In this document: in pieces, positions 9,092-25,987 of the stretch
Layout of the letters: every line of letters begins with the position of its first letter
Position numbering within the stretch: the stretch's first letter is position 1
Virus record (IMG/VR): IMGVR_UViG_3300035156_000375
Location: 1-31,170 of that record
Length of the DNA: 31,170 nucleotides
Origin: a virus
Reading direction: 5' to 3' (one strand)
The notes under the pieces: generated by a model
The model's database searches: none
What the model was told of the DNA's origin: nothing
What the model saw: only the letters and a program-made list of their open reading frames with translations
Position numbers and translations under genes: made by a program

Positions 9092-10501
9092 TTATTCTTT
9101 GATCATCGTCGCGCGAACGGTGCCTGCTTGATTAGCGGTGTTCCTAACGTAAATCGCCAAGGATCCACCTTCGGGCCACGTCACTGCCTGCGATTGTCCG
9201 TTTGTCAGTGCAGGAGTTTGATACTGCCCTGGAGCAGCACCATTGACAAAAATTGCGAAGCGCAGTGACGCGCCTCCAGTCCCGGTTACCGTGAAGCGGT
9301 ATTTTGCACCCGCAAGTGGTTTCGCCCAGAGTACGCCCGTTTCGCCTGGAACGCTTGCGCTGACACCCCATCCATTTCCGTTTAGTTGTTCAAACGCAGC
9401 CCCGGCGGCGAGCTCGAGATTGCCGGTGTTAGCGTTGTAGGTGACCGGCTGAGTCCATGTACCACGCATTGAAAGCATATTGAAATTGCTTGGCTTGTCA
9501 GCGGTAGTAGGTTGTCCGTTGCCGTCCACGTAACTATATGCAGTCGTCACTTGCCGCAGATTCTTGCGTATTTTCTGCAGTTCGTCGCGGACAGCCTGTT
9601 GGGACCCCGTTGGTACTCCCGCAAAGATATCGAAATTTGCGCCAGTCTCCACGTAAATAAAATAGGGTGTACAGATATTTTCGTCCACCACTCGCGCGCC
9701 AAATGTCTTCAGCGTCTGAACTACTTTTTGGAGTGTGGGATTTTGAATGCCCATTGTGTAATCAGCAGGCAACATCAGTAGCGCGCCTTCCGGGATGGTG
9801 CCGGTGTGATTCGTCGCGGAATAAAGATCGGAACGCGTCGCAGGGTAGATATATGTTGGCTGGCCGTTTTTCCCCGCCAAGCCCTCCTGCGCCAATGACA
9901 TAGCCAAGGCATGGTTATAAGAATCGTCGCCATCGTCGACTTCGTGAGCGCGAATAATGCCCGCCATTGGCGGAACTCCAACTGCGCGGCTGCCTTGATA
10001 ATAGCGTGACGGGTCGCCCCATCCCCGGCCGCCGATAGTGGTCCAAGCGTACGCGCGCGCGCGCCAGAGTCCATTTACTTGCTTCAAACCCCAGAAGCTG
10101 TGTATTTTGCCAGTAGAATTATCGAAGATATCGGCGTGGCCGTCGCCGCCCCACGCAGGAGTTACGGCCGGTGGGAAGTGCGGTATTGTGATCGATGGAA
10201 CATTTCTGACCGAATCTAATTCCCGGATGCCAGATTCTGTAAGTATAGGATAAACGATCATTGGCGGATTTTCGGCTGTAGCTTGAAAAATCGGCGGTCC
10301 GAGCTCGGCGTTCGGTTCGATGCGCGGACCGCAAGTACCCTTTAGCTGGTCTTCCAGACCTAGCACTGGACCGATCGGGCGGATGTTCCATGGCGAATCT
10401 GCTGCGAAAGGTTTTTCGAACGTCCCAAATGCCGCGCTCGTTTGGGCATGCGCGTTTGCAGCGAGAAGAAGAGCAACTATTGACGCAATTTGTTTTTTCA
10501 T
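9092..10501 (-). CDS. Secreted protein of unknown function (469 aa), prophage cargo
   Basis: A clean Sec signal peptide (MKKQIASIVALLLAANAHAQ) starts the protein; the start follows AGAGG on the minus strand. Residues 30-290 form a globular domain with conserved-looking blocks: WGGDGHADIFD, IHSFWGLKQVNGLWRARAYA, a Gly-rich turn, RAVGVPPMAGIIRAHEVDDG, HALAMSL, and later KTFGARVVDENI. This pattern recalls secreted bacterial proteins of unknown function, possibly carbohydrate-active. Residues about 345-469 look like a beta-sandwich, perhaps carbohydrate binding. There is no membrane anchor or PEP-CTERM tail. It is monocistronic, antiparallel to phage genes and flanked by AT-richer DNA (10502-10680), the layout of a lysogenic-conversion moron. 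No phage structural role is apparent. Confidence 0.8.
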   Translation of the reverse strand: MKKQIASIVALLLAANAHAQTSAAFGTFEKPFAADSPWNIRPIGPVLGLEDQLKGTCGPRIEPNAELGPPIFQATAENPPMIVYPILTESGIRELDSVRNVPSITIPHFPPAVTPAWGGDGHADIFDNSTGKIHSFWGLKQVNGLWRARAYAWTTIGGRGWGDPSRYYQGSRAVGVPPMAGIIRAHEVDDGDDSYNHALAMSLAQEGLAGKNGQPTYIYPATRSDLYSATNHTGTIPEGALLMLPADYTMGIQNPTLQKVVQTLKTFGARVVDENICTPYFIYVETGANFDIFAGVPTGSQQAVRDELQKIRKNLRQVTTAYSYVDGNGQPTTADKPSNFNMLSMRGTWTQPVTYNANTGNLELAAGAAFEQLNGNGWGVSASVPGETGVLWAKPLAGAKYRFTVTGTGGASLRFAIFVNGAAPGQYQTPALTNGQSQAVTWPEGGSLAIYVRNTANQAGTVRATMIKE

Positions 10502-10705
10502 TTTAATCCGCCTCTAAAAAGGGAAAGTCCCGCGAGGACTCTACCCTTAATTGTCAATTTGAAATCTATTCAATTGTCACAACTCGCAGATTTATAATCT
10601 ACGCAAAGAAAGCACTAAGATTTAAGTTGCCGCAACGCTTGTTACAGGGTTGTATACGTTATTGCCTTGTGATACTGTCTGCATCGTCTTCAAAGGAGCA
10701 ATTGC

Positions 10706-11244
10706 ATGGGCTTTGCCGATCGGTACGTTAGCAGTCTAAATTCCAGTACGTTGTAGGACGGCGAGGAGCACCACTCGGCCGAGCCGCTGTTCGCAGCTGC
10801 GGTTGCGGACATGGCTGGCGCCGGTCTGGGCGCGCTGCTGACGCGGGTGCAGTTCGCCGACGGCTCGATCCGCAAGACGTCCGAGTCGGGTACGCAGAAC
10901 CTGGCGCAGCTGCTGCGCATCTGGACGATGGCAGTGATCGAGAAGGGCCGGGCGCGCCGCTGGGTTCGCGACGAGGGTATCCACCGCAGATCGCTGGCGC
11001 GCTGTACGTGCGCGTGGCCGACGCTTCGCTGGCCCATTGGCTCGACGGCCACTGCAAGACGTGCGCGGGCACCGGCGTCACCGCGCTACTCGGCAACCGC
11101 GCGTGCACGGCGTGCAAGGGCACCGGCAAGGCCGAGCTCACCGGCATGCGCGAGTACGAGAAGAAGCTGGCGCTCGACATGGTCAGCGAGTTGTCTGCCT
11201 TGTGCGACAGCCACGCGCGCCGCGCCACCGCCCGGCTGCGCTGA
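10706..11244 (+). pseudogene. Q-like antiterminator candidate with DnaJ-type zinc finger, doubly broken
   Basis: ATG 10706 follows AAAGGAG. The frame meets TAG at 10754-10756 (codon 17) and then reads DGEEHHSAEPLFAAAVADMA and TRVQFADGSIRKTSESGTQN up to WVRDEG. Near 10979-10986 the natural sequence switches by -1 to PQIAGALYVRVADASLAHWL and a zinc-finger pair CKTCAGTG...CTACKGTG, ending at TGA 11242-11244. Paired CxxCxGTG motifs occur in DnaJ and in one class of phage Q antiterminators. Position at the end of the early region, directly before a promoter-terminator unit, favours Q, but this is inference. With both lesions no full protein can be made without recoding. Confidence 0.65.
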
Positions 11245-11269
11245 CAAAAAAACGGATCGCGTGAACTGG

Positions 11270-11298
11270 TTGTAAACACAGTGATTTTGGTGTAGAGT
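11270..11298 (+). promoter_or_regulatory. Candidate late promoter (pR'-like)
   Basis: TTGTAA and TAGAGT are separated by 17 bases, directly after the Q-like gene. The predicted start is near 11305, about 150 bases before a strong terminator. The order gene Q, promoter, short leader, terminator is that of lambda late control. The -10 element is only a 4/6 match, so this is a candidate. Confidence 0.45.
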
Positions 11299-11339
11299 GA
11301 GGTTCTACGCTTTTCAGTAAAATTTCCTTCGGAATCGTA

Positions 11340-11420
11340 ATGTCCGGCGCAAGCTGGCAACCATACCCGAAGCTCGCGACAGTACCCGGCCCAGCGCCGT
11401 ACCTGCTCGCACTGAAATAA
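11340..11420 (+). CDS. Very small open frame in late leader (26 aa)
   Basis: ATG at 11340 with GGAA five bases upstream, ending at TAA 11418-11420. The peptide begins MSGASWQPYPKL and is Pro/Ala-rich with no charge pattern of a known toxin or leader. It may simply be a chance frame. It is listed because it lies entirely within the predicted leader RNA. Confidence 0.25.
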   Translation: MSGASWQPYPKLATVPGPAPYLLALK

Positions 11421-11458
11421 GCGTCACCCACTTCGCAGATAGCGCTGGGGCACTCTAA

Positions 11459-11480
11459 GCCACCCATGCGGTGGCTTTTT
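11459..11480 (+). terminator. Rho-independent terminator (tR'-like)
   Basis: GCCACC-CATGC-GGTGGC followed by five T. A perfect six-base-pair stem and U-tract on the plus strand, downstream of the candidate late promoter and between it and the convergent PEP-CTERM gene (stop at 11523). Confidence 0.85.
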
Positions 11481-11522
11481 CTATTGTGGCATCAGGTAAT
11501 TGACGCTACAGCGCCTACTGCG

Positions 11523-12095
11523 CTATATAGCTTTGCGCGATCTGCGAACGCCAATGAGGATTAAGCCTACGAACATCATGTCGAAGGTGCCCGGCTCTGG
11601 AACCGCGCTTGTGAACTGAGCGAAATAAGTTTCGTTTCTTGTTTCCAGTCTATATGGTGGTGTTTCCAATATATTAGCCCGTCCGTAAGGCTGCATTACC
11701 GATGTAAAGTCGCCAGGCTTTCCGATTACGAAATCAACTTCCCGAGGACAATCGGTGCAATAAAAGCCACCGAGGTAGGGCACATTGTAGTAATACGGAT
11801 CTATCCCAACGTATGGCTTTGGAAAAGACACTAGGTAGTCGGGCTCATAGTCATCATGATAGCTTCCTATGTATGAGAAGCGAAAAAAACCGTCTTGAGT
11901 GAGGGTTATTTTGCCTGTGATGACTCCATTTGGCGCCAGCTCGAAATGAACCTTTGCGAAGCTCGGTATTATCTCCGTCTCTGACTGGCCCCTTATAAGC
12001 AGTTCGGTAAAGTAGACGTCCATAGTGTCGGCTTTGGCTGCGGTGCTTGAAATCAGCACGATAGATGAGAGTAGTGCAAAAATTAATTTTTTCAT
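11523..12095 (-). CDS. PEP-CTERM sorting-domain exoprotein (190 aa), prophage cargo
   Basis: The N-terminal signal peptide is MKKLIFALLSSIVLISSTAA, cleaved near AKA. The mature part is Tyr/Pro-rich with beta character (GFFRFSYIGSYHDDYEPDYL) and a CTDC pair near the middle. The C-terminus is a textbook PEP-CTERM signal: AVPEPGTFDMM, a short hydrophobic helix (FVGLILIGV) and RRSRK. Such proteins are recognised by the host exosortase (EpsH/XrtA family) and exported to the surface or matrix, usually with exopolysaccharide production. No exosortase is in the window. It is monocistronic, has its own promoter (12125-12153), sits between the late terminator and small late genes, and is markedly AT-richer than phage genes. 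Confidence 0.9.
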   Translation of the reverse strand: MKKLIFALLSSIVLISSTAAKADTMDVYFTELLIRGQSETEIIPSFAKVHFELAPNGVITGKITLTQDGFFRFSYIGSYHDDYEPDYLVSFPKPYVGIDPYYYNVPYLGGFYCTDCPREVDFVIGKPGDFTSVMQPYGRANILETPPYRLETRNETYFAQFTSAVPEPGTFDMMFVGLILIGVRRSRKAI

Positions 12096-12124
12096 ATTTG
12101 TCCATTCACATTAGCTAAGTTCAC

Positions 12125-12153
12125 ACGATAAATAGGCTTTGTTAGTTTGTCAA
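12125..12153 (-). promoter_or_regulatory. Sigma-70-type promoter of PEP-CTERM gene
   Basis: On the minus strand, TTGACA (12148-12153) and TATCGT (12125-12130) are separated by exactly 17 bases, about 30 bases upstream of the PEP-CTERM start at 12095. This lets the gene be expressed from the lysogen independently of phage control. Confidence 0.6.
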
Positions 12154-12181
12154 TTTATCATCACGAAATTTACCCCGCGCC

Positions 12182-12346
12182 ATGACCAATACGACCCGCC
12201 CGCCGAAAGAGCTGATCCGGGCGTACATGGAGCACCGCACGCACGCGCCCGTTGACCCGCCGCCCAGCGCCGAGGACATCCGACGCGAGCTTGGCTGGCA
12301 CCTGATTCCTGCGAACCGCCAACCCGACGCTGGCGATCAAGACTGA
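12182..12346 (+). CDS. Small phage hypothetical protein (54 aa)
   Basis: ATG 12182 to TGA 12344-12346. The peptide has phage-like composition: RPPKELIRAYMEHRTHAPVD, then PPPSAEDIRRELGWHLIP. Two short amphipathic helices are joined by a Pro-rich linker, and the end is acidic. No Shine-Dalgarno is obvious in the AT-rich leader contributed by the PEP-CTERM insertion, so its original leader may have been displaced. Function unknown. Confidence 0.5.
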   Translation: MTNTTRPPKELIRAYMEHRTHAPVDPPPSAEDIRRELGWHLIPANRQPDAGDQD

Positions 12347-12436
12347 ACTGGCGGCCGCGTGAGCATACCGCGCCGCCCAGCAACGGAGGTGCGCCATGAA
12401 GTAGCCTCAAGAATCACGGCACCTCGCAAGAGGGGT

Positions 12437-12496
12437 TACACGCATGACGACTGCGGCTGGGCAATCCCGGCTGGCATCCCAGTCGTCACCCGTGTA
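12437..12496. repeat. Long two-part inverted repeat (structured RNA candidate)
   Basis: TACACG, a CAT/ACC internal loop, GACGACTG pairing with CAGTCGTC, and an inner hairpin GCTGGG-CAAT-CCCGGC can form a 60-base folded element 74 bases before the first tRNA. There is no U-tract. It may be a processing site of the tRNA transcript, a small RNA, or a recombination remnant. Confidence 0.5.
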
Positions 12497-12569
12497 TCGA
12501 ATTCGCTGTACCTGCGTTAATCCCGAAGCTGAGGCAGAGGATGAGCCCGCAGGGCAGCAAAGCCTCAAC

Positions 12570-12646
12570 AGGTCACTAAGACAGCGGTCCAGTCGGCCGG
12601 CCTCCAAAGCCGTGCAGCGGTGGTTCGAATCCATCGTGATCTGCCA
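12570..12646 (+). tRNA. tRNA-Trp (CCA)
   Basis: The 77-base cloverleaf checks out: acceptor AGGTCAC/GTGATCT (one G-U pair), D stem GAC/GTC with GG in the loop, anticodon stem CCGGC/GCCGT (outer C-U mismatch), loop CTCCAAA with U33 and anticodon CCA, T stem GGTGG/CCATC with loop TTCGAAT, discriminator G and an encoded CCA end. It reads UGG (Trp). It is phage-borne by position, as it lies within the late operon. Confidence 0.8.
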
Positions 12647-12651
12647 GTTTC

Positions 12652-12723
12652 GCGGACAAGCCAAGGTGGCAAGCCGGCCCTCCAAGCCGTGCCAGTAGGG
12701 TTCGACTCCCTATGCCCGCTCCA
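12652..12723 (+). tRNA. tRNA-Gly (TCC)-like, degenerate
   Basis: Acceptor GCGGACA/TGCCCGC (one A-C mismatch), T stem TAGGG/CCCTA with loop TTCGACT, and an encoded CCA end resemble Gly tRNAs. The anticodon arm is CCGGC-CCTCCAA-GCCGT, which places TCC at 34-36 but gives C instead of U at position 33. The D arm has only about 13 bases and no proper stem. These defects suggest a decaying or unusual tRNA. It begins six bases after the Trp tRNA, so both lie on one transcript. Confidence 0.55.
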
Positions 12724-12755
12724 GAGTCTCCCGTCCCGCTACCAAGCGGACGTTC

Positions 12756-12787
12756 GCCGCCTCGCACATCGCTGGGCGGCTTTTTTA
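12756..12787 (+). terminator. Rho-independent terminator after tRNAs
   Basis: GCCGCC and GGCGGC pair across a 13-base loop and are followed by six T. It lies 33 bases after the tRNA-Gly-like gene and just before the small membrane-protein gene. Confidence 0.75.
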
Positions 12788-12800
12788 TTTGAGGTGCACC

Positions 12801-12941
12801 ATGGGTGATATCGGATCGGCCATCATCGGCCTAGCCATCGCGGGCGTGGTGCTCGGCGCCATCGTGGCGACCGCCGCCATCTTTGCTCTGCCGTGCCTTT
12901 GGGCGATGGCAAAGTCAACGCTTCGCGCGCTGGTGGGTTGA
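12801..12941 (+). CDS. Small membrane protein (46 aa)
   Basis: ATG 12801 follows GAGGTG. One hydrophobic segment (SAIIGLAIAGVVLGAIVATA through IFALPCLW) covers residues 5-38 and ends in a short basic tail (AKSTLRALVG). A single-span peptide in the late region could be a holin-like or morphogenesis factor, but no endolysin is adjacent, so the lysis role is not supported. It stops two bases before the next ATG. Confidence 0.6.
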   Translation: MGDIGSAIIGLAIAGVVLGAIVATAAIFALPCLWAMAKSTLRALVG

Positions 12942-12943
12942 TC

Positions 12944-13318
12944 ATGGGCGACATCGTCCACCCATCGCAAATCTACCCGGCCCTGCAGGCGCTGCTCGGA
13001 TTGCCTGACCATTGCGTCTCGTTCGAGCTACGCGCGCAGCAAGGCGAGTACGGCGTCATCGTCGCCTGCGAGCACTACCTCGCCCTCGATGCGCCGGGCC
13101 TCAAGCAGCTGGAGAGCGTGCTCAGCGAGTACCAGCTGGTCCACCGCGAGCAGCACCCCGTCAAGGTCGAGGACTTCGATGCCTGGATGCGCGGCCGCAC
13201 CGACCGCGCCCACGCCGAGTATATGGCCGGCCACGCTGCCGGCGGGATCGATTACAGCAAACGGTATGCGCGCGGCGGCTTCGTCGACGGCTTCCGCCTG
13301 GTGGGCGAGGCTGCATGA
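12944..13318 (+). CDS. Phage hypothetical protein (124 aa)
   Basis: The start at 12944 (MGDIVHPSQIYPALQ) is chosen over an upstream in-frame ATG that lies inside the preceding gene. A soluble protein with an acidic middle (VKVEDFDAWMRGRTDRAHAE) and a Gly-rich end (YARGGFVDGFRLVG). No domain is recognised. It is coupled to the next gene by ATGA. Confidence 0.65.
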   Translation: MGDIVHPSQIYPALQALLGLPDHCVSFELRAQQGEYGVIVACEHYLALDAPGLKQLESVLSEYQLVHREQHPVKVEDFDAWMRGRTDRAHAEYMAGHAAGGIDYSKRYARGGFVDGFRLVGEAA

Positions 13319-13428
13319 GCACTGCCGACTTCGCGCGCTGGATGATCATCTGGGAGCAGCTCTTGTGCATGCAGCGCGACATCGCGCAGCGCCAGGTTCG
13401 CGGCACCGGCACCACAAAGTTTCTCTGA
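13315..13428 (+). CDS. Very small phage protein (37 aa)
   Basis: Begins in ATGA with the previous stop. The peptide is one amphipathic, Trp/Met-rich helix (FARWMIIWEQLLCMQRDIAQ) with a Gly/Thr tail. It could be membrane-associated, but nothing identifies it. The overlap and composition suggest it is real. The 168 bases after it hold only the hairpin at 13571. Confidence 0.45.
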   Translation: MSTADFARWMIIWEQLLCMQRDIAQRQVRGTGTTKFL

Positions 13429-13570
13429 CACGTGCGGCAGCCGCCAGCGCGCCCCTGTGGCGGTATCCAGTAACGGGCGCAGTCGCCGACGAGCAAGAGC
13501 CGGGAATCCTCCGCAGAGCATCGCGGCCATATACGGACCGGGCGGCGACACTGAAGGGCATGTAATAATA

Positions 13571-13593
13571 GATTTCCTAAACGAAAGGAAATC
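13571..13593 (+). promoter_or_regulatory. Hairpin sequestering the ribosome binding site of the next gene
   Basis: GATTTCCT and AGGAAATC form a perfect eight-base-pair stem with loop AAACGAA. The right arm holds the AAAGGAAA Shine-Dalgarno of the gene starting at 13597. Folding would hide the ribosome site, so translation likely depends on unfolding by temperature, protein binding or upstream translation. Confidence 0.6.
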
Positions 13594-13596
13594 CCA

Positions 13597-14076
13597 ATGT
13601 TAGATCGACCAATATCCGACGCAGAGTTCAATGAATACAGCAACCTCCAAACTGAGGCGAGGGTAATTCGTGTACGAGCAGAGCGTATAGCACAGTTGTT
13701 GGTAGAAGAGTTTGCCCCAGACAGTGCTTCACGCTTGACGCACGGTGTGGAATTTGCTCCCGGTGAAGGCAATGTGGTTGCAATGTGTAGGACCATATTC
13801 GGCGAAGGTCGCATCCGACTGGTCATTGGCGCGAAAAATCGCACGGCGACCGGCCGGCTGATAGTTGAGCGCGTTGACGAGGACTCATTTGGCCGGGCCG
13901 CATGGAAACCAGTTTGGAATTTCCATGTTCCATCAAGCGAAAAGCTCGTCATCGGCACGCCGCCGAATGCCCGGTGGTATCTGCTCTATAACAACTCCAT
14001 TCAATCGCACGAGGACGCAATTTATGCATTGGGCATGTCGATAAACTACGCGATAGCTGCATACGCGCCTGAGTGA
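13597..14076 (+). CDS. Hypothetical protein (159 aa)
   Basis: The start follows AGGAAATCCCA within the hairpin described at 13571-13593. The protein has an N-terminal helical region (EYSNLQTEARVIRVRAERIA) followed by beta-rich sequence (RLIVERVDEDSFGRAAWKPV, ARWYLLYNN). Base usage is less GC-biased than the terminase genes beyond it, which hints at a later acquisition. No signal peptide or motif. Nothing about position except proximity to the packaging genes suggests a role. Confidence 0.7.
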   Translation: MLDRPISDAEFNEYSNLQTEARVIRVRAERIAQLLVEEFAPDSASRLTHGVEFAPGEGNVVAMCRTIFGEGRIRLVIGAKNRTATGRLIVERVDEDSFGRAAWKPVWNFHVPSSEKLVIGTPPNARWYLLYNNSIQSHEDAIYALGMSINYAIAAYAPE

Positions 14077-14094
14077 CAATTCGGAGGGGCGTGA

Positions 14095-14766: not shown

Positions 14767-15282
14767 ATGGCAGCACTACGAGACGAGGTGAAGCTGTTCA
14801 TCGTCCAAGCGCTGGCCTGTTTCGACACGCCGACGCAGGTGTCGAAAGCAGTAAAAGAGGAGTTCGGGCTCGATGTCATCCGCCAGCAGGTGGCTGCTTA
14901 CGACCCTAATTGCTACGTCGGCCGCAACCTGAGCCTGAAATGGCGAACAATATTCAACGACACGCGCGCGAAGTTCCGCGTGGACACCGCAGCTATTCCG
15001 ATTGCCAGTCGAGCCTTCCGTCTTCGAGCGCTGGCCAGGATGGCGCAGCAGGCTGAGGGTATGCGCAAAATCGCGCTGGCCGTGTCCGTGATTGAGCAGG
15101 CTGCCAAGGAAGTCGGCGACGTCTACGTCAACCGCAAGGTCGACCCGGACAAATCGCTGGACGAAGAAATCAAGCGCCTGGAGATCGAGCGGCGCAAGGC
15201 CGAGCTCAAGCAGCTTGAGACTGGCGGGAGCGACAAGACGGCCGCGCTGCTGTCCGAACTGATATCAAAGCTCCCCTCATGA
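14767..15282 (+). CDS. Terminase small subunit (DUF2280-type)
   Basis: 171 residues: the N-terminal helix-turn-helix (RDEVKLFIVQALACFDTPTQ, then VSKAVKEEFGLDVIRQQVAA) is the DNA-recognition part of DUF2280 proteins, followed by an oligomerisation helix and a charged C-terminal coil (DEEIKRLEIERRKAELKQLE). It selects phage DNA for packaging and hands it to the large subunit, whose gene starts in the same ATGA as this stop. Confidence 0.85.
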   Translation: MAALRDEVKLFIVQALACFDTPTQVSKAVKEEFGLDVIRQQVAAYDPNCYVGRNLSLKWRTIFNDTRAKFRVDTAAIPIASRAFRLRALARMAQQAEGMRKIALAVSVIEQAAKEVGDVYVNRKVDPDKSLDEEIKRLEIERRKAELKQLETGGSDKTAALLSELISKLPS

Positions 15283-16643
15283 ACACTGGCAATCTGCTGC
15301 TGGACCGACAGCTTGCGCGCTGGTATCCGCTGAAGGATCATCCTGTGCAGCTTGCGCTGGTCGCGGCTGTCAGCATGGGGATTCGCTTTCCACTGGTCCC
15401 GGCTGGTCGACGCAGCGGTAAGACCGAGCGCTTCAAGCGCTTCCTGGTGAAGATGGCGAACGCTGTCGTCGGCCAGTACTTCGCTGCCGCGCCGACGCAT
15501 GCGCAGGCGAAGAAAATCTTCTGGGATGACCTAAAGGCTTTCTCGCTGTCGTGTATGCATCCGCACCGGCCGAGCGAGTCGGACCTGATCATCTACCTGC
15601 CGAACGGCAGCGAGATTCACGTCATCGGCCTGGATAAGCCACAGCGGATCGAGGGCATCCCGTGGAAGGGCGGCGGCATCGACGAGTTCGCCGACGTGAA
15701 GTCGGACGCATGGGAGGCGAATATCCTCCCGGCGCTGAACACCGTCAACCCGATGGATCCGGATTACCGCGCCTGGTGCTGGCTGCTTGGCGTGCCAGAT
15801 GGTCTGAACCACTACTACGACCTGTGCAGCAAGGCCGATGCCGGTACCGATCCGAACTTCCGGGTCTACCACTGGAAGTCAGCCGAGATTCTACCGCCCG
15901 ACGTCATCGATGCGATGAAAAGCGCGATGTCGGACATGCAGTTCAAGCAGGAGTTCGAAGCCTCGTTCGAGACGGCCGCTGGCAAGATCTACGAGGACTA
16001 CAGCAAGGCGAACTACACGAACGCCAAGATCGAGCCGCACGAGCAGCTGATGTGGATGCACGATCAGAACTTTACGCCCCTGTCGTCCGCTATCGGTGTT
16101 CGGCGCGCGCGCGAGCAGACACCGCGAGAGCGGGCTGCCGGCGCCAAGGTGGTCCACGATCTGTACCTGCTGGATGAAATCGTGCTCACCAGCGCGATCT
16201 CGAAGCAGTCGGCCGCTGAGTTTGTCGATAAGTACAAGGCACACAAGAACAAGCACGTGCTGATCTACGGCGATCCTGCTGGCCGCGCCGGCGAGAAGCA
16301 CGGCCACGCATCCGACTACACCGACATCGAAGGCGTGCTCAAGGCGAACGGCTGGAGCTATACCCGCAAGGTGAAGCCGGCCGCCCCCGCCATCAAGGAT
16401 CGCCAGAACGCCGTGCGGACGAAGATCAAAACCGCCGATGGGCTGCGAACGCTGTTCGTCAACCCGGCCACAGCGAAGTGGTGCGACAAGGGCTTGGCGA
16501 CCGTCCAGCTGCAAAAAGGCTCGACGTTCCAAGAAGACCAGACGAACAAGTACCAGCACATCACCACGGCGATCGGCTATTGCGTCGACGTGGAGTGGCC
16601 GAGCATCAACAACCGCGCTTCGTCGAGCGAACTGCCATATTAG
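15279..16643 (+). CDS. Terminase large subunit
   Basis: 454 residues. ATPase: Walker A GRRSGKT (43-49), Walker B GGGIDEFAD (131-139). Nuclease: Asp262 in HDQNFTPL, then VLIYGDPAG (328-335) and SDYTDI with Asp346 as candidate metal ligands. It is the DNA-packaging motor and cuts the concatemer. It is intact here, unlike many neighbours. The start overlaps the small subunit by ATGA, and it ends in TAG 13 bases before the portal start. Confidence 0.93.
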   Translation: MNTGNLLLDRQLARWYPLKDHPVQLALVAAVSMGIRFPLVPAGRRSGKTERFKRFLVKMANAVVGQYFAAAPTHAQAKKIFWDDLKAFSLSCMHPHRPSESDLIIYLPNGSEIHVIGLDKPQRIEGIPWKGGGIDEFADVKSDAWEANILPALNTVNPMDPDYRAWCWLLGVPDGLNHYYDLCSKADAGTDPNFRVYHWKSAEILPPDVIDAMKSAMSDMQFKQEFEASFETAAGKIYEDYSKANYTNAKIEPHEQLMWMHDQNFTPLSSAIGVRRAREQTPRERAAGAKVVHDLYLLDEIVLTSAISKQSAAEFVDKYKAHKNKHVLIYGDPAGRAGEKHGHASDYTDIEGVLKANGWSYTRKVKPAAPAIKDRQNAVRTKIKTADGLRTLFVNPATAKWCDKGLATVQLQKGSTFQEDQTNKYQHITTAIGYCVDVEWPSINNRASSSELPY

Positions 16644-16656
16644 CAACAAGGAAACC

Positions 16657-18096
16657 ATGTCCAACAAGGTCAACGACAAATCACCAGCCGTCGAGGCCAT
16701 GGAACCCGGATGGGACAAGATCGACGCGCTGGTCGGCGGCACGAAGGCCATGCGCGCAGCTGGAACGAAGTTTCTGCCGAAGTTCCCGGGCGAGAGCCAG
16801 AAGTCCTACGACTACCGCCTCGCGACCTCGACGCTTTACAACGCGCTGGGCCGCACGCTGGAGAACATGGCCGCGAAGCCCTTCGCCGAGGCGATAACGT
16901 ACACCGATCTGGACCCTGCCGCCGAAGCGTGGATGGAGAACGTCGACCTGTGCGGCAACAACCTGACCGTGTTCGCGCACAGCGTGTTCACCGAAGCGAT
17001 GGGCAAGGGCTTGACGCACATCCTGGTGGACATGCCGAGTACGATCGACGGCGAGGGCAAGCGGCGTTACGCGACCTTGGCCGACGAGAAAGCGGCTGGC
17101 CTGCGTCCATATCTGGTGCATGTCGAGCCTCGGAAAATTCGCGGTTGGCGCAGTGCTAAAGGGATTGACGGCGTCGAGCGACTTACCATGCTGCGCCTGA
17201 TCGAATGCGTTGAGGAGCCGGATGGTGAATTCGGCGTTGCCAAGGTCGACCAGATCCGCGTGCTGAAACCGGGCACTTGGGCGGTATATCGAAAGAATCA
17301 AGGCGCCAAATTCGATGACTGGGCATTTTATGATGGCGGCCCCACATCGTTAGACTTCATCCCGCTAATTACCTTCTACACGAAGCGGACCGGCTTCATG
17401 ACCGCCGAGCCGCCGCTCGAGGACATGGCCGACCTGAACATCAAGCACTGGAACCAGCAGAGCGACCAGGACAGCATCCTGCACACGGCGCGCGTGCCGA
17501 TTTTCGTGATCAGCGGCGTGACCGACGATGACAAGATCGAGATCGGCGCCAAAACGTTCCTGCGGCTGCCGCAAGGCGCTGAGGCCAAGTATGCGGAGCA
17601 CAGTGGTCAGGCGATCGGCGCCGGCCACGCCGCGCTGCAAGAGCTCAAGGACGAAATGCGCTCGATGGGCGCCGAGCTGCTGATGGCAAGCGAAGTGTCG
17701 ATGACCGCGACCCAGAACAACATCGAGGACGGCGATTCGAAGTGCCAGCTCGCACGCATGGTGCAGGCGCTGGAAGATACGCTCGACAATGCTGTGGACA
17801 TGATGCACCGCTGCATGAGTCTGGAATACAAGGGCGCGCTCGACATCTACGACGACTTCTCGTCCGATGCGGTGCTGGCCACGGCCGGGCCGTTCATCCT
17901 GGCGCTGATCCAGATGGTCAACACCGGGCTGATCTCGAAAGAGGACGCTTTTAACGAAATGCAGCGGTATGGCATCGTCAACCCGGACCTGGTCTGGAAG
18001 GACGTGCAAAGCCGCATCAGCCTGGAGCCGCCTATGTTCGAAGTACCGATGCCTGGCGCGGCGAAGACGCCGGCGCCAGAGCCTGACGACGCATGA
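16657..18096 (+). CDS. Portal protein (DUF4055 / SPP1-gp6-like)
   Basis: 479 residues; the start at 16657 follows AACAAGGAAA. Upstream codons in the frame are antisense of the terminase and excluded. Recognisable stretches are GESQKSYDYRLATSTLYNAL, a central beta region, ADLNIKHWNQQSDQDSILHT and EGAEAKYAEHSG-type turns. The order and the adjacency to terminase and a MuF-like gene fit DUF4055 portals, which form the dodecameric DNA gate. Its end overlaps the next gene by ATGA. Confidence 0.88.
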   Translation: MSNKVNDKSPAVEAMEPGWDKIDALVGGTKAMRAAGTKFLPKFPGESQKSYDYRLATSTLYNALGRTLENMAAKPFAEAITYTDLDPAAEAWMENVDLCGNNLTVFAHSVFTEAMGKGLTHILVDMPSTIDGEGKRRYATLADEKAAGLRPYLVHVEPRKIRGWRSAKGIDGVERLTMLRLIECVEEPDGEFGVAKVDQIRVLKPGTWAVYRKNQGAKFDDWAFYDGGPTSLDFIPLITFYTKRTGFMTAEPPLEDMADLNIKHWNQQSDQDSILHTARVPIFVISGVTDDDKIEIGAKTFLRLPQGAEAKYAEHSGQAIGAGHAALQELKDEMRSMGAELLMASEVSMTATQNNIEDGDSKCQLARMVQALEDTLDNAVDMMHRCMSLEYKGALDIYDDFSSDAVLATAGPFILALIQMVNTGLISKEDAFNEMQRYGIVNPDLVWKDVQSRISLEPPMFEVPMPGAAKTPAPEPDDA

Positions 18097-19229
18097 ACCC
18101 GCTCGAAGAGTGGCTCTTAAAAGCGCTGCTCGCCGGCAGCGTCAAGATGCTGCGCGCCGACGCCGAGATGAAGGCCAAGGTGCTCGCGCTGATGGTCCTG
18201 ATGCAAAAAGACCTGGTATCGGTCCTGGCCAACGCCGGCGAGATGTCGGTCATCGGGCGCGCCGGCCGTAACGCGGTGCTGCGCGAATCGAACGAGCTGA
18301 TCGCCAAGTATTACGGCCGCGCCCAACTGCAGGTCGACCTGTTCGGCGTCGCTGAGGTGGAGTCGATGGGCGTTCGCAGGGCGCTGGCGACGGTGATCGA
18401 GCGCGCCGGGCCTGGTGAAATAAGCGCCGAAGTGCGGCTTGGCCTGCGCCTGCCGACCGAGGCGTAGCTTCAGAAGCTGAGCAGCGACATCCTGATCCAA
18501 GGCTCGCCGGCGAAGAACTGGTGGTTGCGCCAGCAGCAGGACACGCAGTTCAAGCTGGCGAACGAGATTCGCATCGGCGCCGCCCAGGGCGAGACGAACG
18601 CGCAGATCATCAAGCGCATCGTCGGGCAAGAGGCGACAGTCATCGCGCCGACGGCCAAGGCACCAGCGCCGGTCATCGAGCCAGGCATTCCAGGCGTGAT
18701 GCCGCTGGCCCGCCGGAATGCTGCGGCAATCGTGCAAACTAGCATGGCGACCGTGGCAGCAGCTGCGCGCCGCGCCACGCTCGAGCTGAACGACGACGTG
18801 ACCGACGGCTTTATGCAGATCAGCACGCTCGACAGCCACACCAGCGACGTGTGCATCGCCTACAGCGGCGCGTCGTGGAACTGGGAATACGAGCCGATCA
18901 ACGGCAACGACCTCCCATGGCTTGGCGGCGTGCCTCGGCACTGGAACTGCCGGTCGATGGAGATCGCCATCATGAAGAGCCTGCGCGACATGGGCATCGA
19001 CATGGACGACCCCGAACCGACACAGCGCGCCTCGGCTGGCGGTCCGATCAGCGCCAAGACGACGTTTGATGAGTTTCTGAAGTTGATGGGACCAGCATTC
19101 CAAGATGAGACGCTGGGGCCTGGCAGGGCGGAGCTTTTCCGCGCTGGGAAGTTGAATAGCCGCGACCTGGTCGACATGTCCGGCCGGCCGCTGCGGCTCG
19201 ATCAGCTCAAGGCCGAGCTGGCGAAGTGA
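18093..19229 (+). pseudogene. Head morphogenesis (MuF-like) minor head protein, amber at codon 125
   Basis: ATG 18093 overlaps the portal stop. The frame stops at TAG 18465-18467 and continues in the same frame, without other stops, to TGA 19227-19229 (378 codons in all). The first part, LLKALLAGSVKMLRADAEMK to GLRLPTEA, and the second, LQKLSSDILIQGSPAKNWWL to LDQLKAELAK, belong to one protein. The second carries the MuF-type core with CIAYSGASWNWEY and LPWLGGVPRHWNCRS. It is normally attached to the portal inside the head. An in-frame ATG far downstream would give only a fragment. Without read-through a virion component would be lost. Confidence 0.8.
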
Positions 19230-19884: not shown

Positions 19885-19903
19885 ACGCCCACAGATTCAT
19901 CAG

Positions 19904-20787: not shown

Positions 20788-20799
20788 AGGCTCCAAACC

Positions 20800-21726
20800 A
20801 TGGCTCTCACTCTTGTTGAAGCAGCAAAGCTGGAAACTGGCGACATCATCCGCCAGGCGATCATCGAACTGTACGCCGGCTCGTCGGGCATTCTGATGAA
20901 CCTTCCGTTCGACACGATCAGCGGCAACGCGATGAAGTGCAACCGCGAGGCATCGCTGCCTGGCGTCGGCTTCCGTGGCGTCAATGAAGGCTACACCGCT
21001 TCGACCGGCATTCTGAATCCCATTACCGAATCGCTGGTGATCGCTGGCGGCGACCTGGATGTCGATAAGTTCATCATCGACACCATGGGCGCCCAGCAGC
21101 GCTCCGTGCACGAAGCGATGAAGGTGCGCGCCTTGTCGCTGGCGTGGATGCAGAAGTTCATCAAGGGTGACAGCCAGTCCGATCCGCGCGAATTCGATGG
21201 CCTGCAAGTGCGGGTCACGGGCGCGCAGATGATCGCCGCCGGTAACGCTGCTAATGGCACGCCGCTGTCCCTGGCCAAGCTGGACGAGGCGATCGACCAG
21301 ACGCTGAATCCGACCCACCTGATCATGTCGAAGGCCATGCGTCGTCGCTTGACGCAGGCCGCGCGTAACACCAACGTCAGCGGCTTCATCACCTACGGCG
21401 TCGATGCATTCGGCCGTCCTGTCGAGATGTACAACGGTTTGCCGTTCATCGTGGTCGACCTCGATCACCTCGGCAATCCGATCCTGCCGTTCGCCGAGGC
21501 AGCAACCTCCGGCACCGCGACCGCGACGTCGATCTACATCGTCTCGATGGGCGAGGGCGGCGTGCAAGGTCTGCAAAACGGCGGCATCAGCGTGCGCGAC
21601 CTGGGCGAGCTGCAAACCTCGCCGCTGTTCCGCACCCGCGTCGAGTGGTACAACGGCTTCGCCGTGTTCAACGGCCGTGCCGCTACCCGCCTGTGGTCGA
21701 TCTCCGACGCCCCAGTGGTCGCCTAA
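20800..21726 (+). CDS. Major capsid protein (HK97 fold)
   Basis: 308 residues, 12 bases after the scaffold gene. It starts MALTLVEAAKLETGDIIRQA, with later LSLAWMQKFIKGDSQSDPRE, HLIMSKAMRRRLTQAARN and LPFIVVDLDHLG, features of coat proteins from BPP-1-like and related phages. Composition is even, with no Cys-rich or low-complexity parts. The gene is intact, unlike the MuF-like and tail genes. It forms the icosahedral shell and is followed by its cement protein. Confidence 0.88.
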   Translation: MALTLVEAAKLETGDIIRQAIIELYAGSSGILMNLPFDTISGNAMKCNREASLPGVGFRGVNEGYTASTGILNPITESLVIAGGDLDVDKFIIDTMGAQQRSVHEAMKVRALSLAWMQKFIKGDSQSDPREFDGLQVRVTGAQMIAAGNAANGTPLSLAKLDEAIDQTLNPTHLIMSKAMRRRLTQAARNTNVSGFITYGVDAFGRPVEMYNGLPFIVVDLDHLGNPILPFAEAATSGTATATSIYIVSMGEGGVQGLQNGGISVRDLGELQTSPLFRTRVEWYNGFAVFNGRAATRLWSISDAPVVA

Positions 21727-21755
21727 ATAACCGCCAACGATAAGGATCACACATC

Positions 21756-22169
21756 ATGGCAAATCTATATTCGATGTTCACCTTCGACGCGGCTACCGTA
21801 CTGAAGGCTGCAGGCCCGATCACCGCATCAATTGACGGCGCAATCCTCGATCTGGGTGAAGGCCTGTTCGACGGCTTCCTGGTGCTGGACGTCAGCGCTG
21901 TGGAAGTCGACAGCGGCAACGAGATCTACACGATTTCGGTGGAAGGCTCCAGCGTCCCACCAATGTCCTCGCTGAGCGTGTGCCTGGCAAAGAAGACGCT
22001 TGGCAACGTGGTCGCCCCGATGGATAACCCGACCGGCGCGGGTCGCTTTGTCGTGCCGTTCCGCAATGAAGAAAACGGGGTGCTGAAGCGCTACGTTCGC
22101 CTGAGCACAGCCGTCGTCGGCACTGTCGTTACCGGCATCAACTTCTTTGCGTTCTTGGCAAAGCGCTAA
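21756..22169 (+). CDS. Bbp16-like capsid cement/decoration protein
   Basis: 137 residues. The beta-rich sequence (AILDLGEGLFDGFLVLDVSA ... GNEIYTISVEGSSVP ... GRFVVPFRNEENGVLKRYVR) matches my memory of the Bbp16 family from Bordetella phage BPP-1, which staples capsomers on the outside of the head. Position right after the major capsid gene is as in BPP-1. A bidirectional terminator follows. Confidence 0.8.
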   Translation: MANLYSMFTFDAATVLKAAGPITASIDGAILDLGEGLFDGFLVLDVSAVEVDSGNEIYTISVEGSSVPPMSSLSVCLAKKTLGNVVAPMDNPTGAGRFVVPFRNEENGVLKRYVRLSTAVVGTVVTGINFFAFLAKR

Positions 22170-22186
22170 ACCAACACTCAAGCATC

Positions 22187-22216
22187 AAAAAAAAGCCGGA
22201 GAAATCCGGCTTTTTT
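22187..22216. terminator. Bidirectional terminator with GNRA tetraloop
   Basis: A seven-A run, AGCCGGA-GAAA-TCCGGCT and T-run: a perfect stem with a GAAA tetraloop and U-tracts in both orientations. It closes the scaffold-capsid-cement unit. Confidence 0.85.
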
Positions 22217-22230
22217 CATTGGAGAACTAC

Positions 22231-22692
22231 ATGTCCCTGATTACCTGCTACGACGCGGATGGAAATCCGCATGAAAAAGAGCCGGTCGATGCACGCGAGG
22301 CGTGCCTGCACAACGGTTTCACCATGACGCCTCCGGGCACCACGGCGATCGGCGCCATCGCCGAATACGTACCCACCAAACAAGAACTGCTCGCCGCTCG
22401 TGACGACTTGCTCGCGCGCCAAATGGAGTTGGATGCATGCGATCAGCGGCTGATCGAGCGTTCCGGGTCGCTGGACCAGCGAGAGCAGGCGCTGGCGGAG
22501 CGTGAGCTGGCCAGTCAGCTGAAAGCTGGTCGCCTCGCCGCCGTTCAGGTTGCCGGCGCCAGTGGTCCGGACGTCGCCAGCATGACGAAGGCTCAACTGC
22601 AGGCCGCGCTGGAAGAGAAGGGCGTCAAATTCCCTGCCACCGCCGACAAAGCCGAGCTGCAATCGCTCTTGACCGCAGCACAAACCGCATAA
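22231..22692 (+). CDS. Structural hypothetical with coiled coil and C-terminal HeH/SAP-like motif
   Basis: The start at 22231 (MSLITCYDADG) follows GGAG; upstream codons belong to the terminator and cement gene. It has an N-terminal short domain with AREACLHNGFTM, a coiled coil (KQELLAARDDLLARQMELDA ... SLDQREQALAERELASQL), and a C-terminal helix-extended-loop-helix-like unit (MTKAQLQAALEEKGVKFPA, then ADKAELQSLL). That ending is typical of HeH/LEM-type tails on phage head-associated proteins. Function unknown; probably a virion-associated or assembly protein given its position. Confidence 0.7.
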   Translation: MSLITCYDADGNPHEKEPVDAREACLHNGFTMTPPGTTAIGAIAEYVPTKQELLAARDDLLARQMELDACDQRLIERSGSLDQREQALAERELASQLKAGRLAAVQVAGASGPDVASMTKAQLQAALEEKGVKFPATADKAELQSLLTAAQTA

Positions 22693-22704
22693 CGAAAGAC
22701 CTAC

Positions 22705-25266
22705 ATGACAGTCCTATATTCAGGCGAAAAGACGACGATCGCAGTGCCGGCCGGCAAGGCGCCGGTTATCGTCGGCACCCATGGCACCTCCGGCTGGCTG
22801 CATTGCCTGAATGAAGGGCTGGGCGGTGATGCTGCAACGCGTAGCTGGAGTGTCGGCGAAGGTCCAGTTGGCCCTATCGCGCTAATGGCCGCAAGCCAGC
22901 GTTACACCGTGAAGTGCATTGTTGGCAGCATTGATGTCACCGACGGGAATGTGGCGGCAGACAGCGCCGTCGCGGCTTTCGTAACTGGCTCGGGCGTCGT
23001 CGGCGAGAAGCTGACCGCAACACTGCCCGCCGGCGTTGTGGGGACGTTGCAGTTCGTACGCTTTACCAAAGCCACACCACCAGTGAAATCGCTCATTTCC
23101 GGCGCGGTGGCAAACGCTGTTAATAGCTTGCAGTACACCTACCAGCAGGGCGATTTGATCTACGATCTCGCCTGTGACACTTCGAACACCGTCCAAACCT
23201 CGAACAAGATTTCGGCGGGGGGCACCGCGACCGTTGACCCTGCACCAGTACCCGCAACCGCAGTTACCCTGACCGGCCCGACCTCCGTGGTCGTGGGCGC
23301 CGAGTCGTCTGCTTACACCGTCACGCTGTCGCCAGTTGGCGGTACCGTCGCATCGCCCGTCACCGTTACGCCGACGGCCATCACTGGCGTCAGCTTCAAC
23401 CCGGCCAGCGTCTCGCTTACCACTACATCGCCTTCGGCCACGTTCACCGCCACCGTGTCGGCCGCCGGCACCAAGACCATCGCCGTGACCAGCACCGGCG
23501 GCCTGACCGCGCCAGCGGCGATCAACATGGTGGCGTCGGCAGCTGCCTCGAACGTTCCGAGCGCGCCGGTGATCATCGCCGCGACCGAGAACATCAACGA
23601 CAACACCACGGCAGTTGTCAGCTACGTGGCACCTTCGAGCAATGGCGGCAGCGCGCTCACCGGCTACACGGGCGTGATGACGATGGAAGACGGCAGCACG
23701 GTGCCCGGCACCGCCGCAGCCGGCGCCACCAGCATGAACTTCACCGGCGTCACGGCGCTGAAGTCGCGCTCCGTGGTGATCCGCGCCGTGAACGGCAATG
23801 GCCCCGGCGCGCTTTCGGCGGTAGCCAAGGTCGCCACGCTGCGTAATGTCGCTACGCGTTGCTCGTCGCAGTACGAGTCCAGCCCGCAATTGCAGGCGTT
23901 GGGTCATTCCACGCACTACAACACCTCTGGTCGCACACAGAACATCCTCAAAGTAGTAATTCCGAATTACTATAGCCAGCTTGATACCGGTTCCGGCACG
24001 CTCAGCGTCAAGGTGGTAATTGAATATCCGCCGGAAAGCGGCATTCAAGATTCGTTTATGTTTGACGGCGCACTGCTCGGTTCTGTCGCCGTAAATACCA
24101 ACAAATTTAGCGATTTTCTGACGTTGACGAACATCGTCGGCGGTATCCCCGATGGCGCGGCGTTCCGTCTCAAGTACTTCTTCCAAACCACTTCTGGTGG
24201 CCGCATCCCGTATTGCCATAATGGTTCTACGAGCAAATACGGCGCCAAGTACGATTTGATCCGCTTCGGCGCGTCGGGTCAAGATCGTCTGACGGACGAT
24301 GCGGCTACTTGGAATGCGCGCGTAAATGACGACGCCACCAAAAATTACTGCTTCAAACCACTGGCGATCCTGGGCTATTCCACCGCAGACGTCCATCTCA
24401 TTAACGGCGATTCGAACACTGCGGGCGGCGGCGTCGATCAAGCTAGCGATACCTTCCTGCTGTGCGGTTTGGGAGAGAAATTGGTCGGCCGTGGTGGTCC
24501 GTTCATCAACCTGGCCCAAAGTGGCGAGAAGCTGGAAGACTGGCTTGACGCAAGTAAAGCCCTGCGCCGGAAGGAGATGGTTCCCTACACCACGGTGCGC
24601 GATAACTTCTACGGCACCAACACCTTTGCGAACCAGACCGATGTTGCCGCGCTGAATGCGCTCGACGTGCGCTATAGAAACGAGTGGGCGCCGTTCAACA
24701 AGCTGACCACTTGCACGATGCCGCCGAAAACGACGCCAGCGACTGGGCCTTTCAATACGCTGGCCAGCCAGAACGTGGACACCACGCAGGACGCAAAACG
24801 CGTCGCGTGGAACGCCGCGCGCGTGGCGAAAACTGCCGTTGCGTTTGACCAGGTGTTCAACATTGCGCCGTTGCTCGCCGCCCCGACCGATGAGCGTAAA
24901 TGGGACGTCCATCCACTGGGCCGTAACCTGACGGTGAGCATGACGGCCGGCTCGAACGTCGTTACCGCCACCACCGGCACTTTCGGCGCCGACGACCCAA
25001 CGACGGAACTGGTCTGCGTTACGCAGGCGTCCTACGCCGGCTCGGCGCCGTACATTTCGGACGGCGGTTTGATCGGGCTGATGCAGTACACCGAGGCGAC
25101 GCACGCACTGATCACCGATCGGGCTGGCGTTGCCCGCCCCGCTGGCGTGACCGTAACTGGCTTGACTATGCACATCGGCCTGTGGAACGTAACAGGTGAC
25201 GGTACACACGGGCGCGAAGCCATGTATCAACGCATCCTTCCTGTCGCGCTGACCGCACCGCTCTAA
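22705..25266 (+). CDS. Large virion-associated protein with Ig-like, Fn3-like and SGNH-esterase domains
   Basis: 853 residues. Residues 1-180 are a beta-rich anchor. Residues about 185-275 form a bacterial Ig-like unit (VTLTGPTSVVVGAESSAYTV ... VTSTGGLTAP). Residues about 285-375 look like Fn3 (PSAPVIIAATENINDNTTAV ... KSRSVVIRAVNGNGPGALSA). The C-terminal part is an SGNH/GDSL hydrolase: GDSN with Ser570, block-II Gly607 in NLAQSGEKLEDW, and block V with Asp832 and His835 (DGTHG). No clear GxND block III is seen. Such domains deacetylate or cleave surface polysaccharides during adsorption. Placement between capsid and connector genes is unusual for a tail fibre; it could be a head spike. Confidence 0.8.
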   Translation: MTVLYSGEKTTIAVPAGKAPVIVGTHGTSGWLHCLNEGLGGDAATRSWSVGEGPVGPIALMAASQRYTVKCIVGSIDVTDGNVAADSAVAAFVTGSGVVGEKLTATLPAGVVGTLQFVRFTKATPPVKSLISGAVANAVNSLQYTYQQGDLIYDLACDTSNTVQTSNKISAGGTATVDPAPVPATAVTLTGPTSVVVGAESSAYTVTLSPVGGTVASPVTVTPTAITGVSFNPASVSLTTTSPSATFTATVSAAGTKTIAVTSTGGLTAPAAINMVASAAASNVPSAPVIIAATENINDNTTAVVSYVAPSSNGGSALTGYTGVMTMEDGSTVPGTAAAGATSMNFTGVTALKSRSVVIRAVNGNGPGALSAVAKVATLRNVATRCSSQYESSPQLQALGHSTHYNTSGRTQNILKVVIPNYYSQLDTGSGTLSVKVVIEYPPESGIQDSFMFDGALLGSVAVNTNKFSDFLTLTNIVGGIPDGAAFRLKYFFQTTSGGRIPYCHNGSTSKYGAKYDLIRFGASGQDRLTDDAATWNARVNDDATKNYCFKPLAILGYSTADVHLINGDSNTAGGGVDQASDTFLLCGLGEKLVGRGGPFINLAQSGEKLEDWLDASKALRRKEMVPYTTVRDNFYGTNTFANQTDVAALNALDVRYRNEWAPFNKLTTCTMPPKTTPATGPFNTLASQNVDTTQDAKRVAWNAARVAKTAVAFDQVFNIAPLLAAPTDERKWDVHPLGRNLTVSMTAGSNVVTATTGTFGADDPTTELVCVTQASYAGSAPYISDGGLIGLMQYTEATHALITDRAGVARPAGVTVTGLTMHIGLWNVTGDGTHGREAMYQRILPVALTAPL

Positions 25267-25290
25267 TCTGCAACATCTCCGCGAGCATCT

Positions 25291-25341
25291 ATGACCATCA
25301 CCACCGAAACCGGCGCCGGCCTGCCCGACGGAAAGCCCTAA
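25291..25341 (+). pseudogene. Orphan 5' end of head-tail connector gene
   Basis: The frame reads MTITTETGAGLPDGKP then TAA. This matches the start of the connector gene 0.77 kb downstream (MTLIVEAGMGLPDAESY): same length and 9 of the first 13 residues identical. The PEP-CTERM gene lies between the two copies. It is the ancestral start left behind when the cargo gene was inserted. A hairpin (25330-25351, GGAAAG/CTTTCC) lies at the break. Confidence 0.65.
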
Positions 25342-25363
25342 AGGACTTTCCTGCAAAGAAAAC

Positions 25364-25987
25364 TTATTTCTGTTTTCGGCGGCGAGCAAAGGCGCCCATG
25401 AAACCCAGACCTGCTAGAAACATTGCGTAAGTCTCAGGTTCTGGAACCGCAGAAGGTATCTGTGGAATCGGCGTGGGCGCATTCGGACCGACGGGTTCAT
25501 TAAATCGCAGATCATCCAGTGCTACGACGTGCAATAACGAACCCATTACGATGAAATTGATGTTCGCAAAGTCGAGGGTGTACGTCGTGTAATCGTTGGT
25601 GACGTGTAATGCTTGCGAAAAGGCCGGATGCTGGGCGTGCACATCCTCTTTGAAGTATGCCGTGATGTAGACATCATCGGTTGCTCCTTCAATATAAGTG
25701 CGCACCGAAAGGCTATTTAATGTGAAATCAGCGCCGGTAGCGCTACGGATCACTGGGAACGCCTCGTTATAAATAACCATTACGCCGGTGCCAGACTGAG
25801 CGACTGGTGAATAGTGCGTGTAATTAGCTCTGCTCCAGCTAAGTCCCGCATACGTCGAAGGCATTTGCTCAATGAAGCCAGTGTCAGGTAAGTCTTCGAA
25901 ATCAATAGTTGTTGCTTTAGCAGCGAAGGTCAGCGAAAGAATTGCGGACAATCCTGAAGTAATGATGATTCGTTTTAAGCTAAACAT
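25364..25987 (-). CDS. PEP-CTERM sorting-domain exoprotein (207 aa), prophage cargo
   Basis: The start at 25987 is chosen because GGGGAGG precedes it and a signal peptide begins there (MFSLKRIIITSGLSAILSLT, cleaved near AAKA); the longer frame upstream is not protein-like. The mature domain is beta-rich (TIDFEDLPDTGFIEQ, SLSVRTYIEG, DDVYITAYF, TYTLDFANINFIVM, VVALDDLRFNEP), like the jelly-roll domains common in PEP-CTERM proteins. The end is VPEPETYAMFLAGLGFMGAF then RRRK, a complete exosortase signal. It is monocistronic, antiparallel and AT-richer than the phage genes. An extended -10 (TGCTAATAT) lies upstream on the minus strand within 26010-26025. It is expected at the cell surface or in the matrix. 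Confidence 0.92.
   Translation of the reverse strand: MFSLKRIIITSGLSAILSLTFAAKATTIDFEDLPDTGFIEQMPSTYAGLSWSRANYTHYSPVAQSGTGVMVIYNEAFPVIRSATGADFTLNSLSVRTYIEGATDDVYITAYFKEDVHAQHPAFSQALHVTNDYTTYTLDFANINFIVMGSLLHVVALDDLRFNEPVGPNAPTPIPQIPSAVPEPETYAMFLAGLGFMGAFARRRKQK

Follow-up and report, generated by a model that had tools for sequence, protein, structure and literature searches.

The DNA analyzed here, referred to below as the window, is a record of 31,170 bases in the viral database IMG/VR that comes without a host genome; from its left end to about position 29337 it consists of a siphovirus-type prophage, an Oxalobacteraceae-type remnant lodged in the genome of a soil or water bacterium. Three genes on the minus strand, named here after their lowest coordinates (25364, 11523 and 9092; Table 1), are each transcribed against the phage operons. 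A first-pass annotation had described them as intact genes with signal peptides, and this was borne out, since all three open reading frames (ORFs) lie exactly where they had been placed and run uninterrupted from ATG to stop. Their products start with a lysine- or lysine/arginine-containing n-region, followed by a hydrophobic run and an A-x-A-like site; plausible Sec signal peptides were read from the sequence, with the use of hydropathy for the 25364 and 11523 proteins.

The latter two were also held to end in PEP-CTERM signals. Both indeed scored above the cut-off of the model PF07589, the 25364 protein strongly (37.7 bits compared with a cut-off of 20.7; 41.4 bits in the DNA search) and the 11523 protein marginally, and the PEP motif, hydrophobic stretch and basic end that characterize this family are present in the former and, marginally, in the latter. 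The same model gave no match in 14 control genomes. Neither protein scored above the cut-off of any full-length PEP-CTERM family of NCBIfam. The mature domain of the 25364 protein had no relative in 295 Oxalobacteraceae genomes, and the whole protein gave no match at E ≤ 1 in 50,697 deposited phages, a search in which low-complexity filtering may mask short signals. Scans of viral contigs with peptides of the three cargo proteins recovered a single relative. Because the mature parts are too variable for such scans, the search was moved to the terminase, the head-tail adaptor Ad1 and the sorting motif.

The three genes differ from their surroundings in guanine plus cytosine (GC) content, which is 46–54%, compared with 58–68% for the phage genes of the window if the low-GC ORF 13597 is excluded. 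In related phages, the GC content of the cargo was likewise below that of the remainder of the locus without exception, at 46–55% compared with 57–63% for the locus in all but L123 (60.8%), in which the trend is weak. Such a deviation from the phage backbone is characteristic of morons, i.e., lysogenic-conversion cargo.

PEP-CTERM genes in the slots of related phages

The 25364 gene occupies what we term slot C, the site between the capsid and decoration genes and Ad1, on the divergent strand, and slot B is the location of the 11523 gene. Further cases were collected by a scan of viral contigs for PEPETYAM, a wider motif scan and a survey of Ad1 in Oxalobacteraceae genomes. A PEP-CTERM gene was found in slot C of 12 non-redundant phages or prophages besides the window (G002, L124/L134, L128, L129, L130/L231, L135, L137/L138, L161, L232, L233, L234 and L235), immediately upstream of Ad1 and divergent from it, and in every case it was reverse-oriented, against the late operon. 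The closest relative, G002, carries its PEP-CTERM gene in the same slot and on the same opposite strand as the 25364 gene, and L123 has one in slot B, matching the position of the 11523 gene. Five of the slot-C cases stem from genome assemblies; L233 lies in a contig of 6.3 Mb and has a complete-looking tape measure gene, and the prophages L232 and L235 are degraded. The proposal of the first-pass annotation that phages deliver exosortase substrates is supported, and such substrates are recurrent: together with the window, slot C provides 13 non-redundant cases, and there are more in other phage types.

The number of PEP-CTERM genes expected in the slot by chance was estimated from 609 such genes in 183 Mb (the 30 genomes behind the Ad1 loci), a slot of 800 bases and 30 loci. 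Five of the 30 Ad1-bearing Oxalobacteraceae loci contained a PEP-CTERM gene in the slot, compared with 0.08 expected (P about 2e-8). Ad1 was also present in 54 relatives identified through the terminase, the hosts of which, where named, are mostly Pseudomonas, Stenotrophomonas and allies, and none of these had a PEP-CTERM gene in the slot; as the two sets were not sampled in the same way, the contrast between them is suggestive only. Within 10 kb of the terminase, no PEP-CTERM gene was detected in any of 104 terminase relatives, and a search of the whole records for 50 of these loci identified one in a single virus record, G002. A search for Ad1 across the order, outside the family, found almost nothing, and the quantitative claim is therefore limited to Oxalobacteraceae.

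An exosortase (PF09721) is encoded in 7 of 7 Oxalobacteraceae genomes tested, six of them being those nearest to the host flank of the window, and in 28 of the 30 genomes with Ad1, among them the five that have a PEP-CTERM gene in slot C. That every genome tested with similarity to the host flank encodes an exosortase speaks against the objection that the host may have none.

The mature parts of 15 cargo proteins fall into at least nine unrelated groups; what recurs is the signal peptide, the sorting tail and the low GC content. As the mature domains are unrelated, the common property is the sorting and not the fold. Between related, alignable copies, the ratio of nonsynonymous to synonymous substitution rates (dN/dS) was 0.20–0.40. 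The cargo genes lie between conserved phage genes and occur in only part of the relatives, a further characteristic of morons.

Slot C is a general cargo site. Unrelated single genes occupy it in three other Oxalobacteraceae prophages (L196 300–1466, L209 2046–2933 and L222 2034–3197), and the gene in L196 shows weak similarity to the exclusion protein Lit, in line with a slot for exclusion genes. In record G002, slot B holds a different reverse-strand gene (L113 2244–3125) for a protein of 293 amino acids (aa) that has no match in Pfam or PADLOC.

PEP-CTERM genes of the PEPxxWA type were also observed in phages unrelated to that of the window: beside the portal and terminase genes (L156 2381–2950), beside primase or DNA polymerase genes (L142 6709–7398 and L192 4806–5516) and near a tail-fibre gene (L153 1792–2514). 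Another PEP-CTERM protein is encoded between the RNA ligase and PhoH genes of a 56.8 kb viral contig (L136 3787–4581) and has no match in deposited phages. Judged by their PEPxxWA-type tails, several of these contigs look alphaproteobacterial. The PEP-CTERM genes next to portal and terminase genes and in replication modules suggest that the phenomenon reaches other phage types.

The third cargo gene

The 9092 gene is located between the replication genes, with the DnaC-like loader, and the Q-like gene, on the opposite strand and outside the structural operon. Its product gave no match in Pfam, NCBIfam or the PDB, including profile searches with its own family. Relatives with 39–48% identity are encoded in the chromosomes of 55 of the 295 Oxalobacteraceae genomes, where many adjoin acyltransferase or glycosyltransferase genes; in several genomes (G170, G090 and G139), the exosortase gene is on the same contig at a distance of no more than about 20 kb. 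Each of these has two or three copies of this undescribed family, which lacks a Pfam model, around the exosortase/exopolysaccharide locus (G170:C65, G090:C2 and G139:C17). The first-pass annotation had overlooked this exopolysaccharide-locus family, whose phage members sit among virion genes.

The phage-borne relatives have no signal peptide and are placed among virion or structural genes, for example directly before Ad1 in a prophage of G090, by a tail-fibre-like gene in L253 and by a capsid-like gene in L255, the neighbours being partly assigned by eye. Compared with the profile phrog_17388, the 9092 protein scored 23.5 bits over part of the profile, and its relatives L003 and L223 scored 70.7 and 43.3 bits, respectively. 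Another distant relative is protein 18 of Gordonia phage Stormageddon (27% identity over 65%), which has been deposited once as a minor tail protein and once as a glycosylhydrolase. The 9092 protein differs from both in its signal peptide, its location outside the structural operon and its strand, so that the structural-operon position and the absence of a signal peptide expected of phrog_17388 members do not apply to it. Among the residues of the family, some aspartates, histidines and arginines and one glutamate are invariant (DGH-D, IR-HE, HAL), which suggests that the protein is an enzyme or binds saccharides. The simplest reading of these sequences is a putative exopolysaccharide-acting protein, of which the host version would be periplasmic, some phage versions would reside on the virion and the version in the window would have been fitted with a signal peptide.

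State of the carrier prophage

The prophage encodes an HNH endonuclease, a Holliday junction resolvase, a DnaC-like loader, the large terminase subunit TerL, portal, MuF, scaffold and major capsid proteins, a decoration-type protein, Ad1, Hc1, Ne1 and a fused remnant of the tail terminator and tape measure genes (Table 1). Its decay was judged by comparison with the nearest relative, the 56.9 kb record G002, the TerL of which is 89% identical. Among the prophage genes that had been described as broken, the Q-like gene, the MuF gene and the tail proved to be so, while no integrase fragment was found among the window ORFs tested. In addition, a gene resembling 3'-phosphoadenosine-5'-phosphosulfate reductase has a frameshift close to its end compared with G002. 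The tail module lacks several kilobases compared with G002, and at about position 29337 the tape measure fragment directly adjoins the 3' part of a phosphoesterase gene of the host. This junction indicates that a deletion took the rest of the tail module, anything located further on with the right end of the prophage, and the start of the host gene; with the tail module lost, the remnant is unable to make a normal tailed particle. The genes for TerS, TerL, portal, scaffold, major capsid protein, Ad1, Hc1 and Ne1 are all intact. The implied argument that intact cargo in a broken phage points to selection is therefore weak and was rejected: since many other phage genes, indeed most, are intact as well, the intact cargo is not evidence of selection in the window copy.

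Nucleotide synteny with most terminase relatives is confined to 14–19 kb of the window. The N-terminal part of the decoration-type protein (22705–25266) is kept among relatives and its C-terminal part varies from phage to phage, consisting here of an fn3 domain and a GDSN motif that resembles SGNH esterases by eye; the protein looks like a swappable module displayed on the capsid. A low-GC ORF on the plus strand (13597–14076; 52% GC) has a counterpart with 29% identity at the corresponding position in G002 and is probably a further accessory gene. A tRNA-Trp (cca) gene is predicted at 12570–12646, in the stretch of prophage that separates slot B from the terminase genes.

Table 1. Cargo genes, associated signals and flanking features, with positions in the window
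Feature	Position	Strand	Remarks
PEP-CTERM cargo 1, slot C	25364–25987	-	207 aa; signal peptide, mature domain without assignment, tail VPEPETYAMFLAGLGFMGAFARRRKQK; GC 48%
PEP-CTERM sorting signal of cargo 1	25373–25450	-	PF07589, E 6.6e-12 in DNA search
PEP-CTERM cargo 2, slot B	11523–12095	-	190 aa; signal peptide, marginal PEP-CTERM tail VPEPGTFDMMFVGLILIGVRRSRKAI; GC 46%
PEP-CTERM sorting signal of cargo 2	11532–11606	-	PF07589, 22.1 bits as protein, cut-off 20.7
Sigma-70-like promoter of cargo 2	12125–12153	-	TTGACA, 17 nt, TATCGT; weak alone (3 found, 1.7 expected)
Secreted cargo 3, slot A, no PEP-CTERM	9092–10501	-	469 aa; exopolysaccharide-locus family related to phage virion proteins (phrog_17388, minor tail); GC 54%
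Terminator-like hairpin ending plus-strand transcription ahead of slot B	11457–11477	+	weak alone
DnaC-like helicase loader, left of slot A	8181–8999	+	
Q-like gene, broken, between slots A and B	10706–11244	+	in-frame TAG and frameshift (compared with G002)
Terminase large subunit	15279–16643	+	
Portal protein	16654–18096	+	
MuF-like head protein	18093–19229	+	split into two frames by a frameshift
Major capsid protein	20800–21726	+	
Decoration-type protein with fn3 domain, left of slot C	22705–25266	+	N-terminus common to relatives
Head-tail adaptor Ad1, right of slot C	26048–26569	+	
Tail terminator fused by deletion to middle of tape measure gene	27823–29337	+	
Host chromosome: 3' part of Tat-type phosphoesterase gene	29337–30275	+	84–88% DNA identity to Oxalobacteraceae genomes

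Origin and putative role of the cargo

We consider it likely that a siphovirus lineage which lysogenizes exosortase-bearing Oxalobacteraceae carries the three genes as morons, and that they alter the surface matrix through the host exosortase. The pre-proteins encoded by two of them have a signal peptide at one end and a PEP-CTERM tail at the other and, by analogy with the known PEP-CTERM/exosortase system, would be exported by the Sec pathway, have their tail cleaved by the host exosortase and join the exopolysaccharide-rich surface. The third protein, also bearing a signal peptide, may bind or act on this exopolysaccharide as well, given that the genes for its host relatives lie beside exopolysaccharide genes and those for its phage relatives among virion genes. 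In the last and least certain step, the surface of the lysogen would be changed to the advantage of the prophage. Plausibly, this advantage would first of all consist in blocking the adsorption of competing phages, and in second place in aggregation or host fitness. A block of adsorption is favoured because the matrix is the first layer met by phages, because a weakly Lit-like gene is found in slot C of one other prophage and because the third gene likewise points to this layer. In the window itself, the phage is unable to form particles owing to the loss of the tail module, and its cargo would now serve the host or be in transit to loss.

Several observations weigh against this interpretation. 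The PEP-CTERM assignment of the 11523 protein is marginal not only with PF07589 (Table 1) but also with TIGR02595 (16.9 compared with a cut-off of 16). A recognizable promoter was found at the 11523 gene only, in a scan that performed near chance. For both cargo types, the predicted structures had low confidence (mean predicted local distance difference test scores of 41 and 35), and no molecular activity could be assigned. The presence of an exosortase in the host of the window was read by proxy from related genomes. Finally, 25 of the 30 Ad1 prophages contain no PEP-CTERM gene, showing that the cargo is optional.

The main rival explanation is that phages acquire host PEP-CTERM genes, which are numerous and mobile, at an intergenic site that tolerates insertions, to the benefit of neither phage nor lysogen. 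Hosts carrying up to about 60 such genes each, the unrelated mature domains and the many prophages without a PEP-CTERM gene would all agree with passive acquisition of this kind. We nevertheless regard it as unlikely, given that the five genes found in the slot far exceed the 0.08 predicted from gene density, that the dN/dS values speak against it and that the GC content of the cargo is far under that of both host and phage; the 25364 mature domain, without a relative in the 295 Oxalobacteraceae genomes, is not a recent pick-up from these. Alternatively, the PEP-CTERM proteins might be made late and act in lysis or attached to particles, and not in the lysogen. Slot C does lie within the structural operon, and other phages have relatives of the third cargo among their virion genes, but the PEP-CTERM gene is oriented against the late operon in all slot-C cases and encodes a signal peptide, which virion proteins do not need, so that such a role is very improbable. 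An assembly chimera of host exoprotein genes and phage contigs, which the IMG/VR origin of the window and the lower GC content at the cargo genes might suggest and which had been raised as an objection beforehand, is hardly credible and is refuted by the same architecture in 12 independent records and genome assemblies, including prophages in contigs of >1 Mb.

Morons and superinfection-exclusion genes are well known, e.g., lom and bor of phage lambda and the surface-modifying genes of Pseudomonas and Shigella phages. The cargo genes resemble these in being single, reverse-oriented genes inside the late region that differ in base composition and are optional among relatives. Known surface morons, however, use outer-membrane, lipoprotein or glycosylation routes, whereas the cargo described here is predicted to depend on the host exosortase. 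With the Lit-type exclusion protein, the likeness consists in the weakly Lit-like gene in the same slot C of L196; Lit acts in the cytoplasm, whereas the PEP-CTERM cargo is predicted to be exported.

The PEP-CTERM/exosortase (EpsH/XrtA) sorting system includes PepA, a flocculation protein of Zoogloea and Aquincola (PMC9850573). The cargo proteins share with this system the signal peptide, the PEP motif, the transmembrane stretch and the arginine-rich end, as well as being small secreted proteins of exopolysaccharide-making betaproteobacteria. In contrast to the known cases, which are chromosomal, they are carried by phages in conserved gene slots. A literature search, with most subscription journals and bioRxiv outside its scope, found incidental co-mentions only and no paper linking phages with exosortase substrates. 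While morons and the exosortase system are each known, their combination in phage-borne exosortase substrates is apparently undescribed; with genes of this kind in matching positions of at least a dozen related viruses, such substrates look like regular phage cargo.

More tentatively, the exosortase system could be a general route of lysogenic conversion, in which a dedicated slot is refilled with differing exosortase-sorted proteins that coat the lysogen and either block competitors or hold it in an aggregate, with the phage of the window adding an exopolysaccharide-acting protein. Exosortase-bearing bacteria hold dozens of PEP-CTERM proteins, mostly without an assigned purpose. Should a fixed slot in phages be a recurrent source of such proteins, part of their variety may stem from phage competition at the exopolysaccharide coat. 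The slot offers a simple experimental handle, as any lysogen that has an active prophage of this kind can be compared in the presence and absence of a single gene for adsorption, aggregation and matrix. If true, this reading would provide a testable function for an enigmatic class of proteins and, for bacteria of environmental biofilms and flocs, a new route of lysogenic conversion.

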